Made by a program: the position numbers and the translations under genes
Notes under the pieces: generated by a model
Databases searched by the model: none
What the model was told of the DNA's origin: nothing
What the model saw: the letters and a program-made list of their open reading frames with translations, nothing else
From: Candidatus Gastranaerophilales bacterium
GTDB taxonomy: Bacteria > Cyanobacteriota > Vampirovibrionia > Gastranaerophilales > Gastranaerophilaceae
Assembly: GCA_944322705.1 (NCBI GenBank)
Contig: CALUPR010000006.1
Span: 1 to 34,260, forward strand
Reading direction: 5' to 3'
Length of the DNA stretch: 34,260 nucleotides
Shown: piece after piece, positions 134-30,693 of the stretch
How the letters are laid out: every line of letters starts with the position of its first letter
How positions within the stretch are numbered: the first letter of the stretch is position 1

Positions 134-197
134 CAATTTTTTCTTTAATTTTTCACCTATTGTGTTTGTTTTATAACATGTGATAAAATAGCCTGTG

Positions 198-1103
198 ATG
201 GATAAAAAAGATTTTAAAGCTCAATATTATAACTATTTAAATAATAATTTAGTTATTATTCAAAATTTTGAAAAATACAGAAAAAAGGTACTGCATAACG
301 CTATTATGAAATCATTTATATATTTTATTCTCGCGGTTATAGTTTTGTATCTGTTATGTATGATGATATTATATGCAGAATTTAATCCGATTTTATTTCC
401 TGTTTTGCTTTTTTCTCTATATGCTTTTGCTCTGAAATCAATTACAGGAATTATTTTAGCAGATAGGCAGTACAGGCAAAAATTTAATGAAGAAATTCTT
501 CCTTTGATTTTTTATCCTGTTGCAAATTTTAAACAATGGCCTAAAGAGCAGAATACTGATGTAATTATAGATTCTCTCATTTTCCCGAATTTTGACACCC
601 GTGAGGATAATTTTTGTATTTTTGGTTACTATAAAGGTTTAAGTATTACATTATCTGATACAAAACTTACCTTACCGGTAAAAGCTTTTGGAAAACCTGA
701 AATTTTTAAAGGAACCATAATTCAAATAGATTTCAAAAAAAATATTGAGAATCATATTTTATTGCTATCAAAAAATGTATATAGAAATCCCCGATATAAG
801 TGTTATAAAACAAATATTTCTGATATGGATGATTATTTATATACGTTTGTAAAAGAAAATTCTGGTATAACTTTTTTAAACACAAATTTCTGGCAGATTG
901 TAAAAAATACGGCTCGTGCTTATTCTGCAAAGAGTTTTGGTTTTTCTTATAAAAATAATACAATGCTTATTGCTATGAATCAACGAAAAGCTATGCCTTT
1001 CGGATATCTTTTTAAGTCGCTTTTAAAGATGAAAAATTACGATGAATTTATAGAAAAATTCATCGTAATTTATGAATTGGTAGATTTTATTAACGAAACT
1101 TAA
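198..1103 (+). CDS. DUF3137-like membrane protein
   Basis: This 301-residue protein has a basic N-terminal stretch, then two adjacent hydrophobic segments (about residues 38-60 and 65-85) that form a helical hairpin, and a soluble C-terminal part of about 200 residues. The C-terminal part ends PFGYLFKSLLKMKNYDEF and a hydrophobic strand. Two-helix N-terminus plus this kind of C-terminal domain fits the DUF3137 family, whose function is unknown; the match is from memory of the pattern. A GTG at 195 directly precedes the ATG at 198; I prefer the ATG, and neither has a clear Shine-Dalgarno sequence. The gene diverges from tRNA-Lys. Its stop interlocks with that of the convergent GT5 gene. A perfect inverted repeat lies in its last 70 bases. 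Confidence 0.65.
   Translation: MDKKDFKAQYYNYLNNNLVIIQNFEKYRKKVLHNAIMKSFIYFILAVIVLYLLCMMILYAEFNPILFPVLLFSLYAFALKSITGIILADRQYRQKFNEEILPLIFYPVANFKQWPKEQNTDVIIDSLIFPNFDTREDNFCIFGYYKGLSITLSDTKLTLPVKAFGKPEIFKGTIIQIDFKKNIENHILLLSKNVYRNPRYKCYKTNISDMDDYLYTFVKENSGITFLNTNFWQIVKNTARAYSAKSFGFSYKNNTMLIAMNQRKAMPFGYLFKSLLKMKNYDEFIEKFIVIYELVDFINET
1029..1071 (-). terminator. Terminator-like perfect inverted repeat inside the 3' end of the DUF3137 gene
   Basis: Positions 1034-1049 and 1056-1071 are perfect 16-base inverted repeats around a 6-base loop. On the minus strand the hairpin is followed by TTTTTC and starts about 30 bases past the stop of the GT5 gene. It can therefore act as a Rho-independent terminator for that gene while coding for the end of the opposite protein. 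The stem is AT-rich, so its strength is uncertain. Confidence 0.5.
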
Positions 1104-4100
1104 GCAGCTTTATCAATTTTTGTAGCTGTATCTTCTTTTTTATTTGTTTCTGTTGCTGTTTGTTGTTGATCTTTAGTTTTATCTTTATGTTTTTTTATGT
1201 ACATATAAGCTCCGGTTCCTATGGCAACAAATGCAGCTGCTATTCCAACCGCAGTTTTAACCCATTTATTTTTAGTTTTTTCAACAGTTTGTTCTGCAGC
1301 TTTTTGAACATTTTTAGCTGTTTCTTTAATAGCAGTTTTAGCCTTTTCGCCGGCAACTCCCAATTCCCCTACAAGACGTTCTAATTTACCGCAATTCCTT
1401 GTGCTTATTTCTTTGTTTGTTTCAAATACTTCTATCATGTAGCGTTCATTTGCAGATTTACCAAGATTGTATTCTGCATTTTCATGCCAGTCAATTTTTT
1501 GTTTAAGGCAATCTCTCGCCATTTCCGCATATTTTGCCAATTTACCTTCTTCCGGTTTAAGGTTATAGTCTGAAGTTGCGCTAATAATACATTTTTTTAT
1601 TTCTGCGGCGTTTGTAAACATTCTTTCCGCATCAATTATGTTTGCAATTTCTTCGCCTGTTTTACCTGAAAGTTTCCCTTCTATATTTAAATCCTTAGGG
1701 TTTCTGAGATATGGATGTTCTGTTAAATAACCTCTGCTTGCTTCTATAAAATCGGGTGCTCCGCCTGTTTTTGTCGATATTACAGGCGTTCCTGCCGCAA
1801 ATGATTCTAAAGGTGTAATGCCGCATGGCTCAAATCTTGACGTAAATATAGAGTATGTAGCACATCCTACAAGTCTGTTAGGAAAGAACCCGTTGACATA
1901 GCAGGCATTTCCTTTATAGATCCCGCCATCCAGTTCTTCAATCTGTTTTATTATATTTTTTACCCAGGTGTAATCTCTTGCATGTTCATCCCAGACGCCG
2001 GCTCCTACTATTAATTTTGTATGTTTTTTTACTTCGGAGTCAACAGCAGGATCTTTTAAAAAGTCTAAAAATGCCTGAAATGTTGAAGGATAACCTTTTT
2101 GAGGGTCAGGGCGCCCCCATCCCATAAGAAGTATGTCCCCTTCTTTATATTGTGATAAATAACCAGTAACACTTGTTTTGTTATTTGAAATTTGTTTATC
2201 AGTAAAGAACATTTTTGTAACAGCAGAAGAACCTCCTCTGTCAAAGGCATTGCCAAGAGAATCCATTAACCATTTTGTATTTGCTTTTTTGGCTTTTAAA
2301 ACTTCTTCAATGTTATCTGAAATTAATTTCCCTGCTTCGTCGTATACAGGTTTGTACTCATAAGGAGTAAAACCGGCTTTTAATTTTGTTAAATCGTTTA
2401 TGTTGGTGCCTTGACAGAAATTAGCTGAAGGGTCGTTTAATCTTAAATTCGCAGGGGTACTTCCGTTTGTAATATCAATTGTTTGTATTTGTGCAAGTTT
2501 GTTAGTCATATACTGTGCAATATCAGGAGTCTCAGGAGATTTCATTTCTTTCCCGTAGTTTATTGATACTGTTCCGCAGCTCATGTTTTTCGGATTCATT
2601 TTTACTGCGGCTACCGGTGTCATTGAGATATTGTATGTATGTATCTCGTTTGCGGCATCAATATAATCATCAATGAAATTAGCCATAAACGGACGCATTA
2701 TTTGGTTTACAAAACTTCTTTCCTCTTTGCTCGCCTGCCACCATTTGGCTTCTATTTCTTTTAATTTTGCTACTTGCGGGTGTTTGTTAAGTGCTTCTAT
2801 ATCTTCTTTATTTGCCACCATTCTGAAAAACTCAAACGGATTTCTTTCAGCACCTTGATAATCTCTGCCTGGATTATGGAAGGTACTGTGGATTTTCAGC
2901 CCGTTATAATATTCATCTCCAAAATGTGATTTGTCTGCTACAGCATTCATTATCATAAAAGCAGGTCTGTCATGAAGCCAGATATTGCCGGGATTATAAT
3001 ACCCGTGCGCTTCTGTATTAAGCTGAGGTAAAATCTCAACAAAAGCTCTGTTGCTGTCAGCAAAGGCTACATTTGTACTGACGTATTCTCTTACACTTGC
3101 AGAAGAAGATGTGCCTGCTGAATGTGAACCTGTTGTTCCATATGCCCCGTATGCTCCATAGGCTCCGTATCCACCTGCATTACCTCCGCCTCCTGCACCG
3201 TAAGCTGTGTCAAATTTTGCCAGATCTTCTGTATGGATAAAATATGCTGCATTTCGTTCTTTTACTTCAGGCGCCGATTTTATTTGTGCTTTTATTTCTT
3301 TAATTTTATTTTGAACTTCTTCAGAGTTTAATCTTTCATTATATGTATTATTAATTTTTTCTATATTACTTTCATCATTTAAAGAAGCATTATCAGCCAA
3401 ACCTTCTTTTATTGATTTGACTACTTCATCATATATTTTCTTTTTGTATTTATTTATTGGAGTTTCTGCCGTATCCGGAATGTCAGCTGCTTTGAACAGC
3501 CTGTATGTAATATTTTTTGTTTTCGTGATTGAATCGTTGGCAGGTCTTGTGAAAGATCCTTTTATTCCTGTATCTTCCAGTCTGATAATCTGCGAAAGTT
3601 CTTTGTGGTCAGGGTGAATTCTTATTACATAGGCAAGTTCTTCTCCTTCTTTTAGAGTTACCCTTTTGGCAACATCTTCCAGAGTTTCATTTTGTTTTGC
3701 CGAAATAAAATTTTCAGCAGGATAATGTTCATTGTATTTTCCATTATTATCTTTTGTTAATTTAGCAACGGTAATACCGCCGTCACCATTATTAAAACTA
3801 TGGTAGGGTGAAAAATCTCTGACATCAGCTCCTTCTTTAAGCCGCCAGTTTTCAGGAGCTTCTTGTGCAACAACTCCCAATCCGCCAAGGTTATAAGGTT
3901 TAACTCCGTATCTTTTATTTTCGGGAGCATAAGAAGCAAATTGATGTATATTTTTGTCATTTCCGGTAAAAGTTAAAATAACACCTGAACCTTGTATAGG
4001 TCGGCTCTCTGTTGTAACCGGTATGATTGGATTGTTTGATTTTAATTTATCATTTTTTGTGATAATTCTTGGACTGATTTGTGCTCTAACCGGATACACA

Positions 4101-4105
4101 TGCAT
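1100..4105 (-). CDS. Very large GT5 glycogen/starch-synthase-like protein with C-terminal membrane anchor
   Basis: This 1001-residue protein has the two Rossmann halves of GT-B glycosyltransferases of family GT5. NLGGLGVVAQEAPENW (about residue 72) matches the ADP-glucose-binding KTGGL region. IWLHDRPAF and STFHNPGRDYQG (about 375-420) match the HDWHA and VHNLAYQG regions. SRFEPCGITPLESFAAGTPV plus TGGAPD (about 756-785) is the donor/catalytic C-terminal motif. Family members are usually near 480 residues. The surplus is a Lys/Glu-rich insert, a Gly/Ala/Tyr repeat linker (about 303-330) within the N-terminal half, and a tail with one transmembrane helix (about 945-968) followed by a Lys/Thr/Gln-rich end. 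I chose ATG 4105 because AAGGGG precedes it; the frame stays open to 4195 without such support. It may build glycogen at a membrane, but the polymer is inferred. Confidence 0.72.
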   Translation of the reverse strand: MHVYPVRAQISPRIITKNDKLKSNNPIIPVTTESRPIQGSGVILTFTGNDKNIHQFASYAPENKRYGVKPYNLGGLGVVAQEAPENWRLKEGADVRDFSPYHSFNNGDGGITVAKLTKDNNGKYNEHYPAENFISAKQNETLEDVAKRVTLKEGEELAYVIRIHPDHKELSQIIRLEDTGIKGSFTRPANDSITKTKNITYRLFKAADIPDTAETPINKYKKKIYDEVVKSIKEGLADNASLNDESNIEKINNTYNERLNSEEVQNKIKEIKAQIKSAPEVKERNAAYFIHTEDLAKFDTAYGAGGGGNAGGYGAYGAYGAYGTTGSHSAGTSSSASVREYVSTNVAFADSNRAFVEILPQLNTEAHGYYNPGNIWLHDRPAFMIMNAVADKSHFGDEYYNGLKIHSTFHNPGRDYQGAERNPFEFFRMVANKEDIEALNKHPQVAKLKEIEAKWWQASKEERSFVNQIMRPFMANFIDDYIDAANEIHTYNISMTPVAAVKMNPKNMSCGTVSINYGKEMKSPETPDIAQYMTNKLAQIQTIDITNGSTPANLRLNDPSANFCQGTNINDLTKLKAGFTPYEYKPVYDEAGKLISDNIEEVLKAKKANTKWLMDSLGNAFDRGGSSAVTKMFFTDKQISNNKTSVTGYLSQYKEGDILLMGWGRPDPQKGYPSTFQAFLDFLKDPAVDSEVKKHTKLIVGAGVWDEHARDYTWVKNIIKQIEELDGGIYKGNACYVNGFFPNRLVGCATYSIFTSRFEPCGITPLESFAAGTPVISTKTGGAPDFIEASRGYLTEHPYLRNPKDLNIEGKLSGKTGEEIANIIDAERMFTNAAEIKKCIISATSDYNLKPEEGKLAKYAEMARDCLKQKIDWHENAEYNLGKSANERYMIEVFETNKEISTRNCGKLERLVGELGVAGEKAKTAIKETAKNVQKAAEQTVEKTKNKWVKTAVGIAAAFVAIGTGAYMYIKKHKDKTKDQQQTATETNKKEDTATKIDKAA

Positions 4106-4306: not shown

Positions 4307-5587
4307 ATGGACAGATTTTTTGGATTATTGGGAATTATTTTGATATTCGGGATAGCTTATTTGATGTCAAATAACAGAAAAGCTATAAATTATAAAACAG
4401 TCGGAACAGGTTTTGCTCTGCAAATATTGTTTGCAGTGTTTATATTTAAAGTACCTTTGGGCAGGGCTATATTTTTTAATATAGGATTGTTTATCCAAAA
4501 AATTCTTGAATTTGCAAAAGAAGGCGGTTCTTTTGTTTTCGGTCCTTTGATGACCGAACATAAAATTACAGCAGTTTTTGGCGAAGGCGCTCAGGTTTTT
4601 GCTTTACAACTTGTAGCATCACTGATTTTTATGATGATTCTTGTTAATATGCTTTATTATTACGGAATAATGCAGAGAGTAGTTCCGCTTCTGGGTAAGG
4701 CTATGAATAAATTAATGTGTGTAAGCGGAGCTGAGGCTTTATCAAATGTTGCAAGTGCTTTTGTAGGTCAGATTGCCGCACAAATTATGATAAGACCGTA
4801 TCTCGCAAAATTAACGCGTTCGGAACTTCTTGCTTCAATGGCTGGAAGTATGGCTTGTATTTCGGGAGCAACCATGCCGATTTATATTGGTATGGGAATT
4901 CCTGCGCAATATCTTCTTGCCTCTTGTATAATGGCAGCTCCTGGCGCTCTTGTTATATCCAAAATAGTTTATCCTGAAACTTCTGTGCCGGAAACAAGCG
5001 AAGATATTAAAATTACTTACAGTAAAAGAAAAAGACCTTATATCAATGTATTTGACGCTATTTCTGCCGGTGCATCCGAGGGTATGAAAGTTGCTATAAA
5101 TGTAATTGCAATGATTTTGGCTCTTGTCGCACTTGTAGCGATGATTGACTGGTTTTTAGGATGTGCAGGTAATTTAATAGTTAAATACCTCCATATAAAT
5201 TTTGCATCTTTCGATTTGACTCATCTTTCTTTAAAATTAATTTTAGGCAAAATTTTTGCAGTGTTTGCTTACTTTATGGGAGTCCCGTTGAGTGAAGCAA
5301 CAACAGTCGGAAGCCTTATGGGTACTAAACTTGTTTTGAATGAAATGGTTGCGTATTTTGATTTAACAAATCTGCCGGTTGCGTTATCCGATAAAAGCTT
5401 TTTAATTGCTAGTTTTGCATTATGCAGTTTTGGAAATTTCGGCTCAATTGCAATTCAGTTGGGCGGTATCGGAGAACTTGCACCAAACCAGCGTAAAAAT
5501 CTTGCAAGGCTAGGGGTAAGAGCTTTAATATGCGGAACATTAACCTGTTACATGTCAGCAGCAATTGTCGGTGTATTATTTAATTAA
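4307..5587 (+). CDS. nupC: Concentrative nucleoside transporter (CNT/NupC family)
   Basis: This 426-residue polytopic inner-membrane protein probably imports nucleosides by ion symport. Family marks are the N-terminal NYKTVGTGFALQ and PLGRAIF segments, GAEALSNVASAFVGQ in the middle, SGATMPIYIGMG, and near the C-terminus MGVPLSEATTVGSLMGTKLVLNE, the most conserved CNT stretch, followed by ANFGS-like SFGNFGSIAIQLG. Length is in the usual 390-430 range and nothing is truncated. AAAAGG lies just before the ATG. It stands alone on the plus strand between a divergent GT5 gene and a convergent zinc-ribbon gene, and its stop interlocks with the latter. Which nucleosides it takes cannot be told from sequence. 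Confidence 0.9.
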   Translation: MDRFFGLLGIILIFGIAYLMSNNRKAINYKTVGTGFALQILFAVFIFKVPLGRAIFFNIGLFIQKILEFAKEGGSFVFGPLMTEHKITAVFGEGAQVFALQLVASLIFMMILVNMLYYYGIMQRVVPLLGKAMNKLMCVSGAEALSNVASAFVGQIAAQIMIRPYLAKLTRSELLASMAGSMACISGATMPIYIGMGIPAQYLLASCIMAAPGALVISKIVYPETSVPETSEDIKITYSKRKRPYINVFDAISAGASEGMKVAINVIAMILALVALVAMIDWFLGCAGNLIVKYLHINFASFDLTHLSLKLILGKIFAVFAYFMGVPLSEATTVGSLMGTKLVLNEMVAYFDLTNLPVALSDKSFLIASFALCSFGNFGSIAIQLGGIGELAPNQRKNLARLGVRALICGTLTCYMSAAIVGVLFN

Positions 5588-11120: not shown

Positions 11121-12872
11121 TTATACATCCTTATAAGACCCTGTAAATCGGTTTGTATAAACTGTATGCAGTAATTCATGCGCTTTATGGGAATTTGGAT
11201 GTTCCAAATATTCCTGATAAAGTTTTTGAATTGAAGGGTTCATATGAGATTTTCTCTGAGGTAATTCGGCATCTTCTTTATAAAGTCCCTGAGCACGTTC
11301 TTCTTTAATTTTGCTGTCATTGCAGCTTACGGGTTGTCCGCCGCCGTTAATGCAGCCGCCAGGGCACGCCATAACCTCAAGCATCTGAAATTGTGCTTTA
11401 CCTTCTTTAATTTCTCTGATTGATTTTTCTGCTTCTTTAAGAGTAGATACAACCCTTACAACAAGTTTTGTTCCTTTAAGATCAAGTTCAATATCTTTAG
11501 AACGGTTTGAAGTCCCTCTCATTTGTTTAATATCAACATCTTGAAGTATCTCACCGGTTGCAAATTCATAAGCAGTACGCACAGCAGCTTCAGCAACTCC
11601 GCCTGAAGCTCCGAAAATTGTTCCTGCTCCGGAATATTCGCCAAACGGTGAATCGTGATCTTCTGGTTCAAGTTTGTCAAAATTAATACCGGCTTCTTTG
11701 ATCATTCTGCCAAGTTCCTGAGTTGTTAATACATAATCGGTATCAGGACGTCCGTTATGTGAAAGCTCAGGTCGCTTGCATTCATATTTTTTCGCAGTAC
11801 ACGGCATAATGCCGACTATTACGAGATTTTCACGTTCAATATTAAAATGTTTTGGAACTAGTTCTGCAAGAACCGGAGATAACATTGACATAGGTGACTT
11901 GCAGCTTGAAAGATGGTTTAACATATCAGGATGCTGATCTTCCATATATTTCACCCATGCAGGGCAGCACGAGGTAAATAAAGGCAAGTTTTGTCCGGAT
12001 TTCAATCTTTCAAGAAATTCGGTCGCTTCTTCCATAATTGTTAAATCTGCAGAGAAATTGGTATCAAATACGAGATTAAATCCGATTTTTCTGAGTGCTG
12101 CATTCATTTTTCCTATAGAATTAACACCTGGTTTCAGACCGAATATTTCGCCTATTGCCACTCTTGTTGCAGGTGCCATTTGAACTGCAACCGTTTTTTG
12201 AGGATTTGTAATTTCTGACCAAACCTGTTCAACATCGGATTTAATGGTTAAAGCGCCTGTCGGACAAACAGCGGCACATTGACCGCAGTTTACGCAATCA
12301 ACTTGTCCCAGAGGTCTTCCGTTTATCGGCTGAACAACAGTTTTAGAGCCTCTGTTTGCAAAACCTAATACTGAATGACCTTGAAATTCAGTGCAGGCTC
12401 TAACGCAGGCTCCGCATAAAATACATTTATTTGGATCTCTTACTATAGAAGGACTTGAGGCATCTATCAAATGGTATTCCGCAAGATCTTTGTCAGGATA
12501 GCGGATGGTTCTGATTCCGTATTCTTCTGCGTACTGCTGCAATTCACAGTTCCCTGATTTTTCGCAGGTCAAGCAGTTTCTGTCGTGGTTTGCAAGAAGC
12601 AGTTCCAGAACAGTTTTTCTGATTCTTCTTGTCTTTTCTGTATTAAGATGTATCTTTAAGCCATTTTCAGGAGGCATTGTGCATGAGGATTGAATGCCTC
12701 TGCCTTCAACTTCTACAACGCACATTCTGCATGCCCCGAAAGATGTTAAATCAGGGCGATAACAAAATGTAGGAACATTCATTCCTGCTTTTCTGATTAC
12801 TTCAAGAAGATTTGGTTCATCAGTAAATTCAACTTCTTTTCCGTCTATAAATAGTGTTTTTTTATCTGTCAT
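11121..12872 (-). CDS. hydA: [FeFe] hydrogenase catalytic subunit (HydA/HndD type)
   Basis: This 583-residue protein carries the H-cluster and should make or use H2 in the cytosol. Domains in order are: a [2Fe-2S] ferredoxin (C37, C48, C51, C64); the His/Cys cluster site NHDRNC..C....C (about 95-109); two [4Fe-4S] sites (CILCGACVRAC near 150-160; CVNCGQCAAVC near 193-203); then H-cluster motifs L1 TSCCPAW (C302/C303), L2 MPCTAKKYE (C358) and L3 EVMACPGGCINGGGQP (C503, C507). All H-cluster ligands are present. Length matches the NADP-reducing HndD and trimeric HydA subunits. It is the last gene of a three-gene operon; 101 bases with a repeat-like segment separate it from hydB. AAGGAA precedes the ATG. 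The maturases HydE, HydF and HydG are not in the window. Confidence 0.95.
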   Translation of the reverse strand: MTDKKTLFIDGKEVEFTDEPNLLEVIRKAGMNVPTFCYRPDLTSFGACRMCVVEVEGRGIQSSCTMPPENGLKIHLNTEKTRRIRKTVLELLLANHDRNCLTCEKSGNCELQQYAEEYGIRTIRYPDKDLAEYHLIDASSPSIVRDPNKCILCGACVRACTEFQGHSVLGFANRGSKTVVQPINGRPLGQVDCVNCGQCAAVCPTGALTIKSDVEQVWSEITNPQKTVAVQMAPATRVAIGEIFGLKPGVNSIGKMNAALRKIGFNLVFDTNFSADLTIMEEATEFLERLKSGQNLPLFTSCCPAWVKYMEDQHPDMLNHLSSCKSPMSMLSPVLAELVPKHFNIERENLVIVGIMPCTAKKYECKRPELSHNGRPDTDYVLTTQELGRMIKEAGINFDKLEPEDHDSPFGEYSGAGTIFGASGGVAEAAVRTAYEFATGEILQDVDIKQMRGTSNRSKDIELDLKGTKLVVRVVSTLKEAEKSIREIKEGKAQFQMLEVMACPGGCINGGGQPVSCNDSKIKEERAQGLYKEDAELPQRKSHMNPSIQKLYQEYLEHPNSHKAHELLHTVYTNRFTGSYKDV

Positions 12873-12892
12873 TTTGTTATTCCTTATATTGG

Positions 12893-12972
12893 AAGCCCGG
12901 AAGCTCAGATGTCAAGAGGTCAGGCTATTATCAGTAAATTGCTTGCCGTCTTGCCTTCCTGACTTCTGATCT
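12893..12972. repeat. Intergenic repeat-like segment with TAGCCTG core (copy 1)
   Basis: On the minus strand a purine-rich arm (GAAGATCAGAAGTCAGGAAG...) leads to TAGCCTG (plus 12921-12927) and a pyrimidine-rich arm (ACCTCTTGACATCTGAGC). The same layout and core recur at 19946-20037. It sits inside the hydrogenase operon between hydB and hydA. Confidence 0.4.
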
Positions 12973-12973
12973 T

Positions 12974-14836
12974 CTATTCTAATACTATTGCCTTGAACGG
13001 GCAGTTTTTCATACATGCTTCACATTTAATACATTTAGATTGGTCAATATGGTGAGGATGTTTAATTGTGCCTTCAATTGCACCGACAGGACAAATTCTT
13101 GCACATTTAGTACAGCCTCTGCAGGCAGATTCATTAATAACGATTTTTTTCATTGCAGTGCAAACCCCTGCAGGACATTTCTTATCTCGAATATGTGCAA
13201 TATATTCATCTTTGAAGTATTTTAATGTTGAAAGAACAGGATTTGGTGCTGTTTTCCCAAGTCCGCAAAGGGAGCCGTCTTTAACAGCCTGCGCAAGTTC
13301 TTCAAGTGTATCTAAATCCTTCATTTCACCTTTTCCTGCAACAATTTTTTCAAGAATCTTAAGCATATTTTTAGTTCCTTCACGACAAGGAACGCATTTG
13401 CCGCAGCTTTCGTGCTGAGTGAAGTTCATAAAGAATCTGGCAACTTCGACAATACAAGTTTTATCGCTCATTACAACCAGACCGCCTGAGCCTACCATTG
13501 CACCTGCTTTGATTAGATTATCGTAATCCATCGGGATGTCAAGATGTTCTTCTGTTAAGCATCCGCCTGACGGACCGCCTATCTGTACAGCTTTGAATTT
13601 TTTGCCGTCCCTCATTCCGCCGCCAATGTCAAATACTATTTCTCTCAAGGTTGTTCCCATCGGAACTTCAATAAGACCTGTATTATTTACTTCGCCGGTA
13701 AGAGCGAATGTTTTTGTGCCTTTAGAAGTTTCTGTTCCCATAGAGGCAAACCAATCAGCGCCTTTCAAGATGATTAAAGGTACATTGGCAAGTGTTTCGA
13801 CGTTATTAATCAAAGTCGGTCTGCCAAATAATCCTTTATTCGCAGGAAATGGCGGTTTCGGTCTTGGCATTCCGCGTTCGCCTTCGATAGATGCCATAAG
13901 AGCTGTTTCTTCACCACAGACAAATGCTCCTGCCCCTTCTTTTATATGAATTTCAAAGGAAAAATCACTTCCCATTATATTTTTGCCGAGATAATTCCTT
14001 TCTTCTGCATCTTTTATAGCTTTTCTTAAACGTTTAATGGCAAGCGGGTATTCTGCTCTTACATAGATATATCCTTCATCTGCACCTATTGCAAAAGCAG
14101 CTATTGCCATACCTTCAAGGAGTTTATGCGGATCACCTTCCATGACGGATCTGTCCATAAAAGCTCCCGGGTCACCTTCATCACCGTTGCAGACAACATA
14201 GGATTTTCCGCCTTTATTGGCAGCCGTAAATCTCCATTTGCGACCTGTGGGAAAACCACCGCCGCCTCTGCCTCTTAATCCTGATTTCTCAATAGTTTCT
14301 ATAACACCATCAGGGTTGTTTTCTTCTATAACTTTAGCTAATGCCTCATATCCTCTGACAGCAAGAGCTTCATCAATGCTTTCTGCATTTATGTTTCCGC
14401 AGTTTGCAAGTGCAGTTCTTGTTTGTTTTGCGTAAAAATTAATATGAGCGTCATCCTGAACATGTTCATGTGTTTTAGGGTCAACATATAGAAGTCTTTC
14501 AACGGGTTTGTTATTTTTTATATGGCTTTCATATATTTCTTCAACGTCTTTTTCTTTGACTTTTACATACGTTACATGTTTGTCAGGAATAGCAACAAGA
14601 ACTCCCTGTTCACAGAAGCCGTGACAGCCTGTCGGAACAATTGTCATTTTATCGTAATCAGTCATAGTCGAAACATCTGCTCCGAGTTCTTTAAATTTTT
14701 CTATAACTTTTAAAGCACCGTTTGCAACACAGCCTGTCCCTGCACATACAAGGACTCTTAATCCTTGTGATTTAACCAGTTCGCGTGCTTTTTTTTGTTC
14801 TTCTTGTATATTTATATTTAATGCTGTTTTTTCCAT
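12974..14836 (-). CDS. hydB: [FeFe] hydrogenase NAD(P)-binding flavin subunit (HydB/HndC/NuoF type)
   Basis: This 620-residue subunit passes electrons between NAD(P)H and the iron-sulfur chain. The N-terminal thioredoxin-like [2Fe-2S] region is visible (CAGTGC near 32 and TGCHGFC near 69). The NuoF core follows with GLRGRGGGGFPTGRKW and NGDEGDPGAFMDRSVMEGDP (FMN/NADH sites), AFVCGEETALMASIEG, and a [4Fe-4S] site, ESCGKCVPCREGT plus SLCGLG. The C-terminus adds two [4Fe-4S] ferredoxin sites, CRGCTKCARICP and CIKCEACMKNCP. That full set is typical of HydB of trimeric, often electron-bifurcating hydrogenases, rather than of plain NuoF. The ATG overlaps the hydC stop by one base, with GGAGG just upstream. 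Bifurcation with ferredoxin is inferred from subunit architecture. Confidence 0.94.
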   Translation of the reverse strand: MEKTALNINIQEEQKKARELVKSQGLRVLVCAGTGCVANGALKVIEKFKELGADVSTMTDYDKMTIVPTGCHGFCEQGVLVAIPDKHVTYVKVKEKDVEEIYESHIKNNKPVERLLYVDPKTHEHVQDDAHINFYAKQTRTALANCGNINAESIDEALAVRGYEALAKVIEENNPDGVIETIEKSGLRGRGGGGFPTGRKWRFTAANKGGKSYVVCNGDEGDPGAFMDRSVMEGDPHKLLEGMAIAAFAIGADEGYIYVRAEYPLAIKRLRKAIKDAEERNYLGKNIMGSDFSFEIHIKEGAGAFVCGEETALMASIEGERGMPRPKPPFPANKGLFGRPTLINNVETLANVPLIILKGADWFASMGTETSKGTKTFALTGEVNNTGLIEVPMGTTLREIVFDIGGGMRDGKKFKAVQIGGPSGGCLTEEHLDIPMDYDNLIKAGAMVGSGGLVVMSDKTCIVEVARFFMNFTQHESCGKCVPCREGTKNMLKILEKIVAGKGEMKDLDTLEELAQAVKDGSLCGLGKTAPNPVLSTLKYFKDEYIAHIRDKKCPAGVCTAMKKIVINESACRGCTKCARICPVGAIEGTIKHPHHIDQSKCIKCEACMKNCPFKAIVLE

Positions 14837-15330
14837 TAGTTTTCCTCCTTCATAATTGTATCAAGCACTATAGTGATAGCGTCTGATGTCATTTGAGGAT
14901 AAACTTTATCGTTTATAACAACTACAGGTGCAAGCCCGCATGCTCCGAGGCAGCTGACAGTTTCTAAAGAAAATAGCCCGTTTTCACTTGTCAGTTGACC
15001 TGCCGGTATATTTAATTTTGCTCTTATGGCATTAAGAACCGGCATTGAACCTCTAACGTGGCACGCTGTTCCGTCACAAACCTTTATTTCATATTTCCCT
15101 TTAGGTTCAAGGGAAAATTGTGCATAAAATGTTGCAACTCCAAATACTGTTGCGGGTGACAGCCCTTCCATTTTTGTTCCGATATAAATCATTGCTTCTT
15201 CAGGAAGGTATCGGTATGATTCCTGAACTTTTTGTAAAATCGCAATCAGGTTAGATTTGTTATAGTCATAAGAAGCCATAATTTCATCTAACTTTGATGT
15301 GTCAATTTTATGAGGATTTCCTACACTCAT
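14836..15330 (-). CDS. hydC: [FeFe] hydrogenase [2Fe-2S] subunit (HydC/HndA/NuoE type)
   Basis: This 164-residue thioredoxin-like subunit carries one [2Fe-2S] cluster. A helical N-terminus (LIAILQKVQESYRYLPEEAM) is the NuoE helical bundle. The cluster ligands are in CDGTACHVRGS and SCLGACGLAPVV, at family spacing. Length equals known HydC proteins (about 160). I use ATG 15330, six bases after AGGAG, instead of a TTG at 15336. It is first in the operon hydC-hydB-hydA, with hydB starting on its stop codon. This order is the standard one for NAD(P)-linked trimeric [FeFe] hydrogenases. Confidence 0.94.
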   Translation of the reverse strand: MSVGNPHKIDTSKLDEIMASYDYNKSNLIAILQKVQESYRYLPEEAMIYIGTKMEGLSPATVFGVATFYAQFSLEPKGKYEIKVCDGTACHVRGSMPVLNAIRAKLNIPAGQLTSENGLFSLETVSCLGACGLAPVVVINDKVYPQMTSDAITIVLDTIMKEEN

Positions 15331-15370
15331 CTCCAACTCCTATGTATATGTATTGTTTAACCCCGATTGT

Positions 15371-28461: not shown

Positions 28462-29784
28462 ATGAAAATTTGTGTAATCGGAACGGGATATGTAGGGTTA
28501 GTTGCGGGAACATGTCTTGCTGATATGGGAAATAATGTTATATGTGTTGATAATGATTTGGATAAATTGGAAAAATTAAGAAACGGTGTTGTACCTATTT
28601 ATGAACCGGGACTTGAGGAGTTAATAAAAGCTAATGTTATGGAAGGCAGACTTAGTTTCTCAGATAATTTGTCTGATGCTGTTAAAAAATCTCTGGTTTG
28701 TTTTATTGCGGTTGGAACCCCTCAAAGTGAAGACGGGTCAGCAGATCTTCATTATGTTGAACAGGTTGCCGAAAGTATAGGAAAAGCAATAAACGATTAC
28801 AAGGTTATAGTCGATAAATCAACAGTACCGGTTGGAACTGCTGATAGAGTCACTCAAATTATCAAAAAATATTATGACGGTGAATTTGATGTTGTATCAA
28901 ATCCTGAATTTTTGAAGCAGGGAGCTGCTGTTGATGATTTTTTAAAACCTGACAGAGTTGTAATAGGCTCAAATTCTTCCCGTGCTACTGCTATTATGCA
29001 GGAAGTTTATGCCCCGTTTTTTAGAACTGCAAGTCGTTTTGTTATAATGGATGTCAAATCTGCCGAGATGACAAAATATGCAGCGAATTCTTTTTTGGCT
29101 TTAAAAATTTCTTACGCAAATGAGATTGCTAATATTTGTGAGGCTGTCGGTGCAGATGCTGAAATGGTTCGTATAGGTATGTGTTCGGATAAACGTATAG
29201 GAACACAATTCTTATTCCCCGGTTTGGGGTATGGCGGAAGCTGTTTCCCAAAAGACGTAAAAGCTCTGTTAAAAATTGCGGATGATCATAATTGCGAGCA
29301 TCGTTTGATTGAGGCGGCAGATGAGGTTAATAAAGAGCAGAGAGTTATTTTTATTACCAAAATTCTGCAAAGATTCGGCGCTGATTTATCCGGCAAAACA
29401 TTTGCAGTATGGGGGTTGACTTTTAAACCAAAAACAAATGATATGAGAATGTCGCCTTCTATTACTATTATTAATGCGCTTCTTGAATTGGGAGCAAAGG
29501 TTCAAGCTTATGATCCTAAAGGCTTTGAACAGGCAAAATTAATCTGGGGAGACAAAATTGTATATGCTGCGAATTCTTATGATGCGCTTAATAAAGCTGA
29601 TTGTTTGCTGTTATTAACCGAGTGGAACGAATTCAGACGTCCTGATTTTGACAAAATTAAAGAGTTAATGAGCACTCCGATTATATTTGACGGTAGAAAT
29701 CAATATGATGGAGAGAGATTAATTCAGCGCGGGTTTGAATATTATTGTGTAGGTAAAAGATATAAAATGTTAAATCCCCGATAA
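28462..29784 (+). CDS. UDP-glucose 6-dehydrogenase
   Basis: This 440-residue cytosolic enzyme oxidises UDP-glucose twice with NAD+ to UDP-glucuronate, a precursor of surface polysaccharides. The N-terminal Rossmann motif is VIGTGYVGLVAGTCLA (about 5-20), then EPGLEEL, FIAVGTPQ, KSTVPVGTAD, SNPEFLKQG, the catalytic lysine region TKYAANSFLALKISYANE (K205), and the catalytic cysteine in GYGGSCFPKD (C261). The C-terminal domain has GLTFKPKTNDMRMSPS. It is a typical Ugd/TuaD. AAGGAG lies eight bases before the ATG. It diverges from the MsbA-like gene and overlaps the hydrolase gene by 15 bases at its 3' end. Confidence 0.94.
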   Translation: MKICVIGTGYVGLVAGTCLADMGNNVICVDNDLDKLEKLRNGVVPIYEPGLEELIKANVMEGRLSFSDNLSDAVKKSLVCFIAVGTPQSEDGSADLHYVEQVAESIGKAINDYKVIVDKSTVPVGTADRVTQIIKKYYDGEFDVVSNPEFLKQGAAVDDFLKPDRVVIGSNSSRATAIMQEVYAPFFRTASRFVIMDVKSAEMTKYAANSFLALKISYANEIANICEAVGADAEMVRIGMCSDKRIGTQFLFPGLGYGGSCFPKDVKALLKIADDHNCEHRLIEAADEVNKEQRVIFITKILQRFGADLSGKTFAVWGLTFKPKTNDMRMSPSITIINALLELGAKVQAYDPKGFEQAKLIWGDKIVYAANSYDALNKADCLLLLTEWNEFRRPDFDKIKELMSTPIIFDGRNQYDGERLIQRGFEYYCVGKRYKMLNPR

Positions 29785-30693
29785 TCCGTTAAATGCCTTG
29801 ATCTTTTCAGCATCAATTGAGTGACCGCCGGTTTTAAGTACTACAAATTCTTTTAAATTTTTGGTATGTTTAGCCAGTTCTTTTGTTGATTTTGTTGATA
29901 TTACACTGTCATTTTCCGAGTGTATAAAATAGACAGGAAGTTTTAGATTTTTTATCTTACGTGCATTTTGGAATGACCAATCTACTATGTCCATCAAAAA
30001 AGGAAATTTTACCATTAAATATTTTATCGTCTTCGGAAGTTTAACAGTATGTCCCTTAAGCAAAAAGTCAGTTTCATTTTTCATTGAATTAAAAGGTGAT
30101 ATAAGTACGAGAAATTTTAAATCTTCATTTTTATGCGCGAGTGTAATAGCCGGAAAGCTTCCTAAGCTGAAGCCTACAACTCCTATATTATCTTTTTCTA
30201 TTCCCTTCTCGTTAAGATATTTTATCGCACTTTTGGTATTTTGTCTGATAGATTCGGCGGTAACAGTTCCGGTACTGTTTCCAAAGCCTCCGTATTCGGG
30301 AGCAAAAACACCATAACCCTTTTTTATTATAGATTTGTATAATTCCTGGTTTGACGTAATATTTTGTCCGAGACCGTGATAAAAAATAATATATCTTTTT
30401 GAGTTATTTGGATTAATATCCCACGCTTGAAAAACATTTTTTCCTGTTTTAAGTTCAATAGTTTTAAGATAAGATTTCAGCTCTTTATCCACGGCGAATT
30501 TTCTTAATTTTGATATATATGTAAATCTGTCGAAAATTCTATGCATATAAGAATTTAACGGAGATAATTGTTCAAGAGTATTTCCGAGTCCTGTAAAATC
30601 AGGATTGATATCCCTTCTAAATTTTTTAGATTTTTCCCCGTAAAGTATAGATTTATTGTTGTAATATGTATTTGTTATCGGGCTTATAAGCAT
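29770..30693 (-). CDS. Alpha/beta hydrolase of unknown substrate
   Basis: This 307-residue protein has an alpha/beta-hydrolase fold from about residue 105 onward. The oxyanion region is YHGLGQNI, the nucleophile elbow GFSLGSFPA (serine), the acid SENDSVIS (aspartate) and the histidine GGHSID near the C-terminus. The pattern is that of the serine aminopeptidase/YqjL-like monoacylglycerol-type hydrolases. The first 100 residues are not part of the fold: MLISPITNTYYNNKSILYG, then RRDINPDFTGLGN. AGAGG precedes the ATG. No signal peptide is seen. The 3' end overlaps the convergent ugd gene by 15 bases. Confidence 0.85.
   Translation of the reverse strand: MLISPITNTYYNNKSILYGEKSKKFRRDINPDFTGLGNTLEQLSPLNSYMHRIFDRFTYISKLRKFAVDKELKSYLKTIELKTGKNVFQAWDINPNNSKRYIIFYHGLGQNITSNQELYKSIIKKGYGVFAPEYGGFGNSTGTVTAESIRQNTKSAIKYLNEKGIEKDNIGVVGFSLGSFPAITLAHKNEDLKFLVLISPFNSMKNETDFLLKGHTVKLPKTIKYLMVKFPFLMDIVDWSFQNARKIKNLKLPVYFIHSENDSVISTKSTKELAKHTKNLKEFVVLKTGGHSIDAEKIKAFNGLSGI

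Follow-up and report, generated by a model that had tools for sequence, protein, structure and literature searches.

Glycogen synthesis in bacteria is usually pictured as soluble. The bacterial glycogen synthase GlgA, a member of glycosyltransferase family 5 (GT5), has a GT-B fold, an active site of His, Asn, Arg, Lys and Glu, and the SRFEPCG motif. Here we describe a giant GT5-like protein that has the same features, but at double the length and with a membrane helix, no KxGG lysine, a second Glu forming an EX7E pair, and a score below the TIGR02095 cut-off. Its gene, on the minus strand, runs from an ATG at 4105 to a stop codon whose last base is 1100 (1100..4105) in a 34,260-nucleotide stretch from a Candidatus Gastranaerophilales bacterium (assembly GCA_944322705.1, contig CALUPR010000006.1, positions 1 to 34,260), which as a whole is called the window. 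We refer to this 1001-residue protein and its relatives as group A. At a probability of about one half, we favour the explanation that group A is a GT5-like retaining GT-B glucosyltransferase, held by its C-terminal helix at the cytoplasmic membrane with the catalytic body in the cytosol, which would be a second, localised alpha-glucan synthase beside the soluble GlgA.

Granule-bound starch synthases (from Cyanobacterium sp. CLg1, Cyanophora and rice) are among the top structural matches of the window protein, with Z scores of 24.5-27.5 at 16-20% identity; to our knowledge, these enzymes have no membrane helix. In the original prediction, known GT5 enzymes were said to be soluble and near 480 residues. 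This holds for bacterial GlgA and is too broad in view of the fungal alpha-1,3-glucan synthase Ags1, which the available part of PMC5753165 describes as having a glycogen/starch-synthase-like domain inside a large multi-transmembrane protein. Ags1 resembles group A in that such a domain is built into a membrane protein; it has, by the same account, an extracellular domain and a multi-transmembrane domain, whereas a single hydrophobic helix is seen in the window protein, which matches no amylase. According to the available part of PMC10801857, the plant starch synthase SS4 is placed at thylakoids via MFP1. Glucan synthesis positioned at a membrane is the likeness to group A; SS4, however, is recruited by a separate anchor protein, whereas group A has anchor and enzyme in one chain. 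Among the titles and abstract openings listed for glycogen or glycosyltransferases in Gastranaerophilales and Melainabacteria, and for membrane-anchored GT5 proteins, none concerns such an enzyme, with passages of PMC4040986 also covered.

We observed the following with respect to fold and family. The predicted structure of the window protein is a complete GT-B fold (mean predicted local distance difference test score, pLDDT, 81.4; predicted template modelling score, pTM, 0.80). The closest structural match is the granule-bound starch synthase 6gnf (Z 27.5, root-mean-square deviation 2.9 Å, 493 aligned residues), and E. coli glycogen synthase 2qzs scored Z 23.8. The first nine matches are all starch or glycogen synthases (Z 27.5 to 22.9), followed by phosphorylases at ∼21-22.5; as rows no more than 1 Z unit apart are tied, the rank of the granule-bound enzymes over other starch synthases is not to be over-read. 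Likeness to GT5 is beyond chance, because the profile of the group A family and that of ordinary GlgA from these bacteria match along the core, with a probability of 99.6 and an E-value of 6.2e-25. We also built a tree of 63 rows by a quick method, with Shimodaira-Hasegawa-like approximate likelihood ratio (SH-aLRT) support only, in which group A is located on a branch separate from the GlgA of the same genomes. Structure prediction and phylogeny were among the checks that the original prediction had proposed: the fold is nearest to starch and glycogen synthases, and group A branches apart from ordinary GlgA. The same genome has an ordinary GlgA of 481 residues, a GlgC above its cut-off, and genes of the alpha-amylase family, all located elsewhere. 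With ordinary GlgA and GlgC present, the group A protein is therefore a second, divergent enzyme.

For the active site, we aligned 87 family rows with 29 GlgA rows; three of the 87 (L029, L030 and L031) are not group A rows but fall in or close to a second giant group, B. His410, Asn411, Arg665 and Lys670, at the positions of E. coli His161, Asn162, Arg300 and Lys305, are invariant in all 87 relatives. His410, the catalytic-site His of GT5, lies in HNPGRDYQG (residues 410-418, 2852..2878; like all parts of this gene given below, on the minus strand), and the donor-phosphate Arg and Lys lie in WGRPDPQKG (residues 663-671, 2093..2119). The SRFEPCG motif (residues 756-762) is part of SRFEPCGITPLE (residues 756-767, 1805..1840), where Glu759, at the E. 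coli E377 position, is conserved in 80/87 rows and forms the EX7E pair with Glu767. The donor half looks working yet altered, and the acceptor half looks more heavily rebuilt. The retention of donor-site residues had been named as support for activity. This stands for the Arg, the Lys, the Glu and the catalytic His and fails for the KxGG lysine, which is lost; activity remains likely, as judged from sequence.

The anchor was assessed in the best 80 loci from named public genomes among 105 relatives found, of which 78 have a complete C-terminus. A single C-terminal hydrophobic helix is present in 74 of these 78, and no other stretch of these 74 proteins is as hydrophobic; the four lacking it are L101, L103, L104 and L105. 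In the window protein, this predicted transmembrane helix (residues 952-970, 1196..1252) is the top hydrophobic window, at 1.73 compared to 0.77 for the next. Hydropathy by itself is weak evidence, the strongest window of the 29 GlgA sequences spanning 0.86-2.11. Therefore, the claim of a membrane anchor is based on the position and conservation of the helix, and on these grounds the membrane tie put forward earlier is upheld. The helix belongs to a C-terminal extension (residues 897-1001, 1103..1417) made of a helix, the transmembrane helix and a low-complexity tail of 31 residues, which in the family often ends in a peptide like KIDKAA (1103..1120 in the window), part of a recurrent tail motif. 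A strict form of this motif ends 31/81 family proteins compared to 0/364 open reading frames in 400 kb of a relative, and a looser form ends 47/80. Among 843 other reading frames, only two have the loose motif plus a C-terminal hydrophobic stretch or the N-terminal start. A general sorting signal was rejected; on these counts, the tail motif looks family-specific. A positive-inside test gave no signal (mean Lys/Arg of 3.95 and 4.04 on the two sides of the helix). No signal peptide was seen in the group A protein, and the catalytic body would be on the cytosolic side.

We infer that the enzyme is active, that its sugar is glucose, that its acceptor is an alpha-glucan, and that its orientation is cytosolic. 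The C-terminal helix would dock the enzyme at the cytoplasmic membrane with the catalytic body in the cytosol, a nucleotide-glucose would supply the glucose that is added to an alpha-glucan there, and the protein would work as a localised second glucan synthase alongside soluble GlgA.

In the window protein, only the generic C-terminal transferase domain is above its Pfam cut-off, as PF00534 (residues 657-797, E 1.2e-9) and as its relative PF13692. PF00534 is common to GT4 and GT5, and the single GT4 row in the tree sits on a long branch. Several observations weigh against the favoured explanation. The window protein gave no match to PF08323 at E 0.1; the relative L099 scores 23.2 for it (cut-off 22.7). 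The top NCBIfam model, TIGR02095 (glycogen synthase), scores 26.9 bits against a cut-off of 328.45. In the nucleotide-binding loop NLGGLGVV (residues 72-79, GGLG at 74-77; 3869..3892), the KxGG lysine is Asn72, with Lys in just 28/87 rows, and the Asp following the GG loop is replaced by Val78. The second Glu, eight residues past the SRFEPCG Glu, is found in 86/87 rows and is Ile or Tyr in the 29 GlgA; EX7E is a hallmark of GT4, and this Glu is of the GT4 type. Seven of the 87 rows, all of one subclade, have Ala at the key Glu. The residues inserted by alignment, terminal extensions excluded, are ∼232 before the hinge position Asn547-Gly548 and ∼118 after it, so that the extra residues fall mostly in the acceptor-side half and the acceptor may differ. 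We also observed no glycogen genes among the recurrent neighbours of group A. As the curated cut-offs are not reached and the KxGG lysine is missing, the proper label on these tests is GT5-like, rather than GlgA or established GT5 member.

The subclade with Ala at the catalytic Glu (PSRFAPCELTDLE) consists of L108-L112, L027 and L028, and its remaining active-site residues are intact. These proteins are possible pseudoenzymes, or their chemistry may be altered.

The rebuilt acceptor side makes it conceivable, as a tentative alternative, that group A is a membrane glycosyltransferase, transferring glucose or another sugar not to glycogen but to lipid, protein or envelope glycan, with the GT5 core retained for donor chemistry. 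The excess of inserted residues before the hinge, the GT4-like EX7E pair and the membrane anchor are consistent with such an acceptor, as is the fact that glycogen is already served by the ordinary GlgA. However, the closest solved folds are starch and glycogen synthases, and the list of recurrent neighbours has no envelope-glycan cluster. In plants, inactive starch-synthase relatives (SS5) are thought to act as scaffolds, and a non-catalytic or weakly catalytic protein positioning glucan granules or GlgA at the membrane would agree with the loss of the KxGG Lys and the following Asp, the Ala-bearing subclade and the long disordered and repeat segments. We find such a scaffold doubtful, as His, Asn, Arg and Lys in 87/87 rows and Glu in 80/87 are hard to account for without catalysis.

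A fusion, frameshift or binning artefact deserves next to no credence. The genome of the window is a draft of 123 contigs and 89% complete; relatives of ∼890-1060 residues, however, occur in many genomes, including on long contigs (1.03 Mb, G018 contig 11; 371 kb, G007 contig 3). The gene is thus intact in many independent genomes, which disposes of the assembly fusion considered in the original prediction. Most records of the best 80 of the 105 relatives, which have this design in common, are titled Candidatus Gastranaerophilales, Melainabacteria or uncultured bacteria. The titles Fusobacterium sp. CAG:439 (L035), Brachyspira (L084), Heliobacteriaceae (L099) and Acinetobacter (L109) also occur, and these contigs are probably mislabelled metagenome bins. 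Group A is matched in 33 of 39 related genomes (its own included), several of them weakly, and the GT5 domain family in 39/39, most having an ordinary GlgA. Among the matches listed from 292 genomes of the phylum, other classes have GlgA-sized frames of ∼400-530 residues (E 1e-9 to 1e-11), and frames of more than 750 residues come from the window's own genus, family or order. Group A is a real and conserved family of membrane-anchored GT5-like enzymes that, judging from these sequences, most probably works as a membrane-docked glucan synthase.

Further GT5-like proteins of 790-1130 residues were found in the same genomes. In the tree, nine of these form group B (support 98), apart from the GlgA group (support 99) and from group A; L216-L218, which have C-terminal helices, fall among distant A rows, and L219 is unplaced. 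Group B is like group A in size, GT5 core, membrane helix, bacterial family and, in some genomes, chromosomal slot. It differs in that the helix is near the N-terminus, many B rows have the GG-loop Lys, and PF08323 is matched. All nine B rows have their hydrophobic stretch (1.3-2.2) near the N-terminus, with no such stretch at the C-terminal end, and the N-terminal stretch was also present in 15/18 B proteins of a later set (three genes common to the nine). This second giant group, anchored at the opposite end, is new here.

We then counted both groups in 117 genomes of the family, with thresholds of E 1e-30 for A (including distant A rows) and E 1e-40 for B; that the 117 were the same in both draws was judged from their equal number and matching handles. 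Group A is present in 50 and group B in 49 of these genomes: 47 have A only, 46 have B only, 21 have neither, and only three (G231, G340 and G342) have both, where ∼21 would be expected under independence. The distribution has a Fisher p of 1.2e-12, uncorrected for kinship among these related genomes. For this reason, a firmer point is that A-only and B-only species both occur within the genera g19, g23, g30 and g135, and in the window's own genus (G005 and G006). In G006, the slot that A has in sister genomes, between a nucleoside carrier gene and a DUF3137-like gene, is taken by a B gene that runs in the opposite direction; nothing fills this slot in G005, whose B gene is elsewhere. G070 has its B gene flanked by a ClpC-type gene and a conserved 242-residue gene, a location that belongs to A in L060 and similar loci. 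This may reflect loss of one or the other copy from a tandem ancestor, or replacement in place, and both point to overlapping roles. As the two distributions are nearly complementary, the data suggest that A and B fill the same job.

The excess length of group A, aligned to the 29 GlgA, comes from ∼12 inserts, plus an extension at each terminus, around one GT-B core, with smaller extra loops besides those named here. Translation of the frame confirmed the GT5 motifs, the Gly/Ala/Tyr linker, the Lys/Glu insert and the C-terminal helix of the 1001-residue protein as first noted. A tandem duplication or fusion of two synthases was ruled out, a single core covering residues 48-899. A longer, TTG-started frame was also ruled out, as relatives begin at the same Met (MRVxSVMP). 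A beta-rich insert (residues 120-193, 3527..3748) is present in most of the family and has no clear PDB match; a Lys/Glu-rich helical insert (residues 211-282, 3260..3475) and the Gly/Ala/Tyr repeat linker (residues 305-340, 3086..3193; low pLDDT) are found in close relatives only. The beta-rich insert is older than the other two. For the insert region (residues 96-300), a Pfam search yielded weak scattered matches only. Modelled alone, it had a pLDDT of 90.4; the best Foldseek match had an E-value of 0.15, short of the 0.001 threshold, and a second structural search reached at most Z 4.7, for the helical part only. The insert thus has no clear match to a known domain in Pfam or the PDB; an alignment of the insert to a known domain in ordinary synthases was the outcome that the original prediction had set against itself.

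The N-terminal extension (residues 1-50, 3956..4105) is disordered (pLDDT <50 at 1-48), starts with MHVYP and ends in ILTFTGN. A short motif of the type ISFKG, ITFTG or ISFTG recurs among otherwise unrelated proteins of these bacteria, within 60 residues of the N-terminus (20/449 reading-frame clusters, compared to 18/1928 internal 60-residue bins; Fisher p 2.6e-6); group A and some group B proteins likewise have it at their start. Its carriers include L107:3394-4248, L147:7508-8503, L235:9156-9722 and, in a looser form, a hydrolase gene at 29770-30693 (minus strand) of the window. It is possibly an unrecognised targeting element.

The group A gene is flanked by a divergently transcribed, conserved gene for a NupC-type (CNT) nucleoside transporter (4307..5587, plus strand) and, at the other edge of the slot, by a convergent gene with a sub-threshold DUF3137 match (195..1103, plus strand). 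In 42/70 loci with at least 1500 bases available upstream, the gene transcribed divergently from A is CNT, down to 28% identity of A. Within the genus, coordinates place it next to the group A gene in 21/21 genomes having A. Among 18 picked B genomes (16 regions plus G005 and G006), nine have B immediately upstream of CNT in the same orientation, with gaps of ∼70-165 bases. We rejected this adjacency as proof of coupling, since a control divergent pair of the window, with an ABC transporter gene and one of UDP-glucose dehydrogenase type, is likewise kept together in 18/22 genomes, CNT is present in 39/39 related genomes, it stays beside the DUF3137-like gene in G005 although the slot is empty, and local order is generally kept. 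Among G024-G038, relatives at the order level, no group A gene has CNT beside it. The available part of PMC6195507 reports that in E. coli, mutation of nupC or nupG lowers both the uptake of external ADP-glucose and the amount of stored glycogen, and by analogy a coupling of carrier and enzyme is attractive. A dedicated membrane post for glucan synthesis in the Gastranaerophilaceae that couples with the NupC-type carrier and is filled by either of two interchangeable giants with anchors at opposite ends, so that ADP-glucose or nucleoside from plant-rich gut contents would become glucan at the membrane, is nevertheless improbable in our estimate.

Elsewhere in the window (11121-15336, minus strand), a gene for an NADH-dependent [FeFe] hydrogenase of group A6 lies beside NuoF- and NuoE-like genes, the NuoE-like assignment of 14836-15336 being made by eye. 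This fits a fermenter.

A membrane-held enzyme of the glucan type looks like a standing feature of the Gastranaerophilaceae. The exchange of A and B in one slot offers a natural comparison, and the job probably requires what the two share, a transferase core with an anchor at one end or the other. Annotators are warned that GlgA-like motifs in these genomes do not always mean a glycogen synthase. If the favoured explanation is true, a widespread, conserved membrane-docked GT5-like enzyme in this non-photosynthetic sister group of the cyanobacteria would bear on where in the cell glucan synthesis is placed, a currently active question for plant starch.

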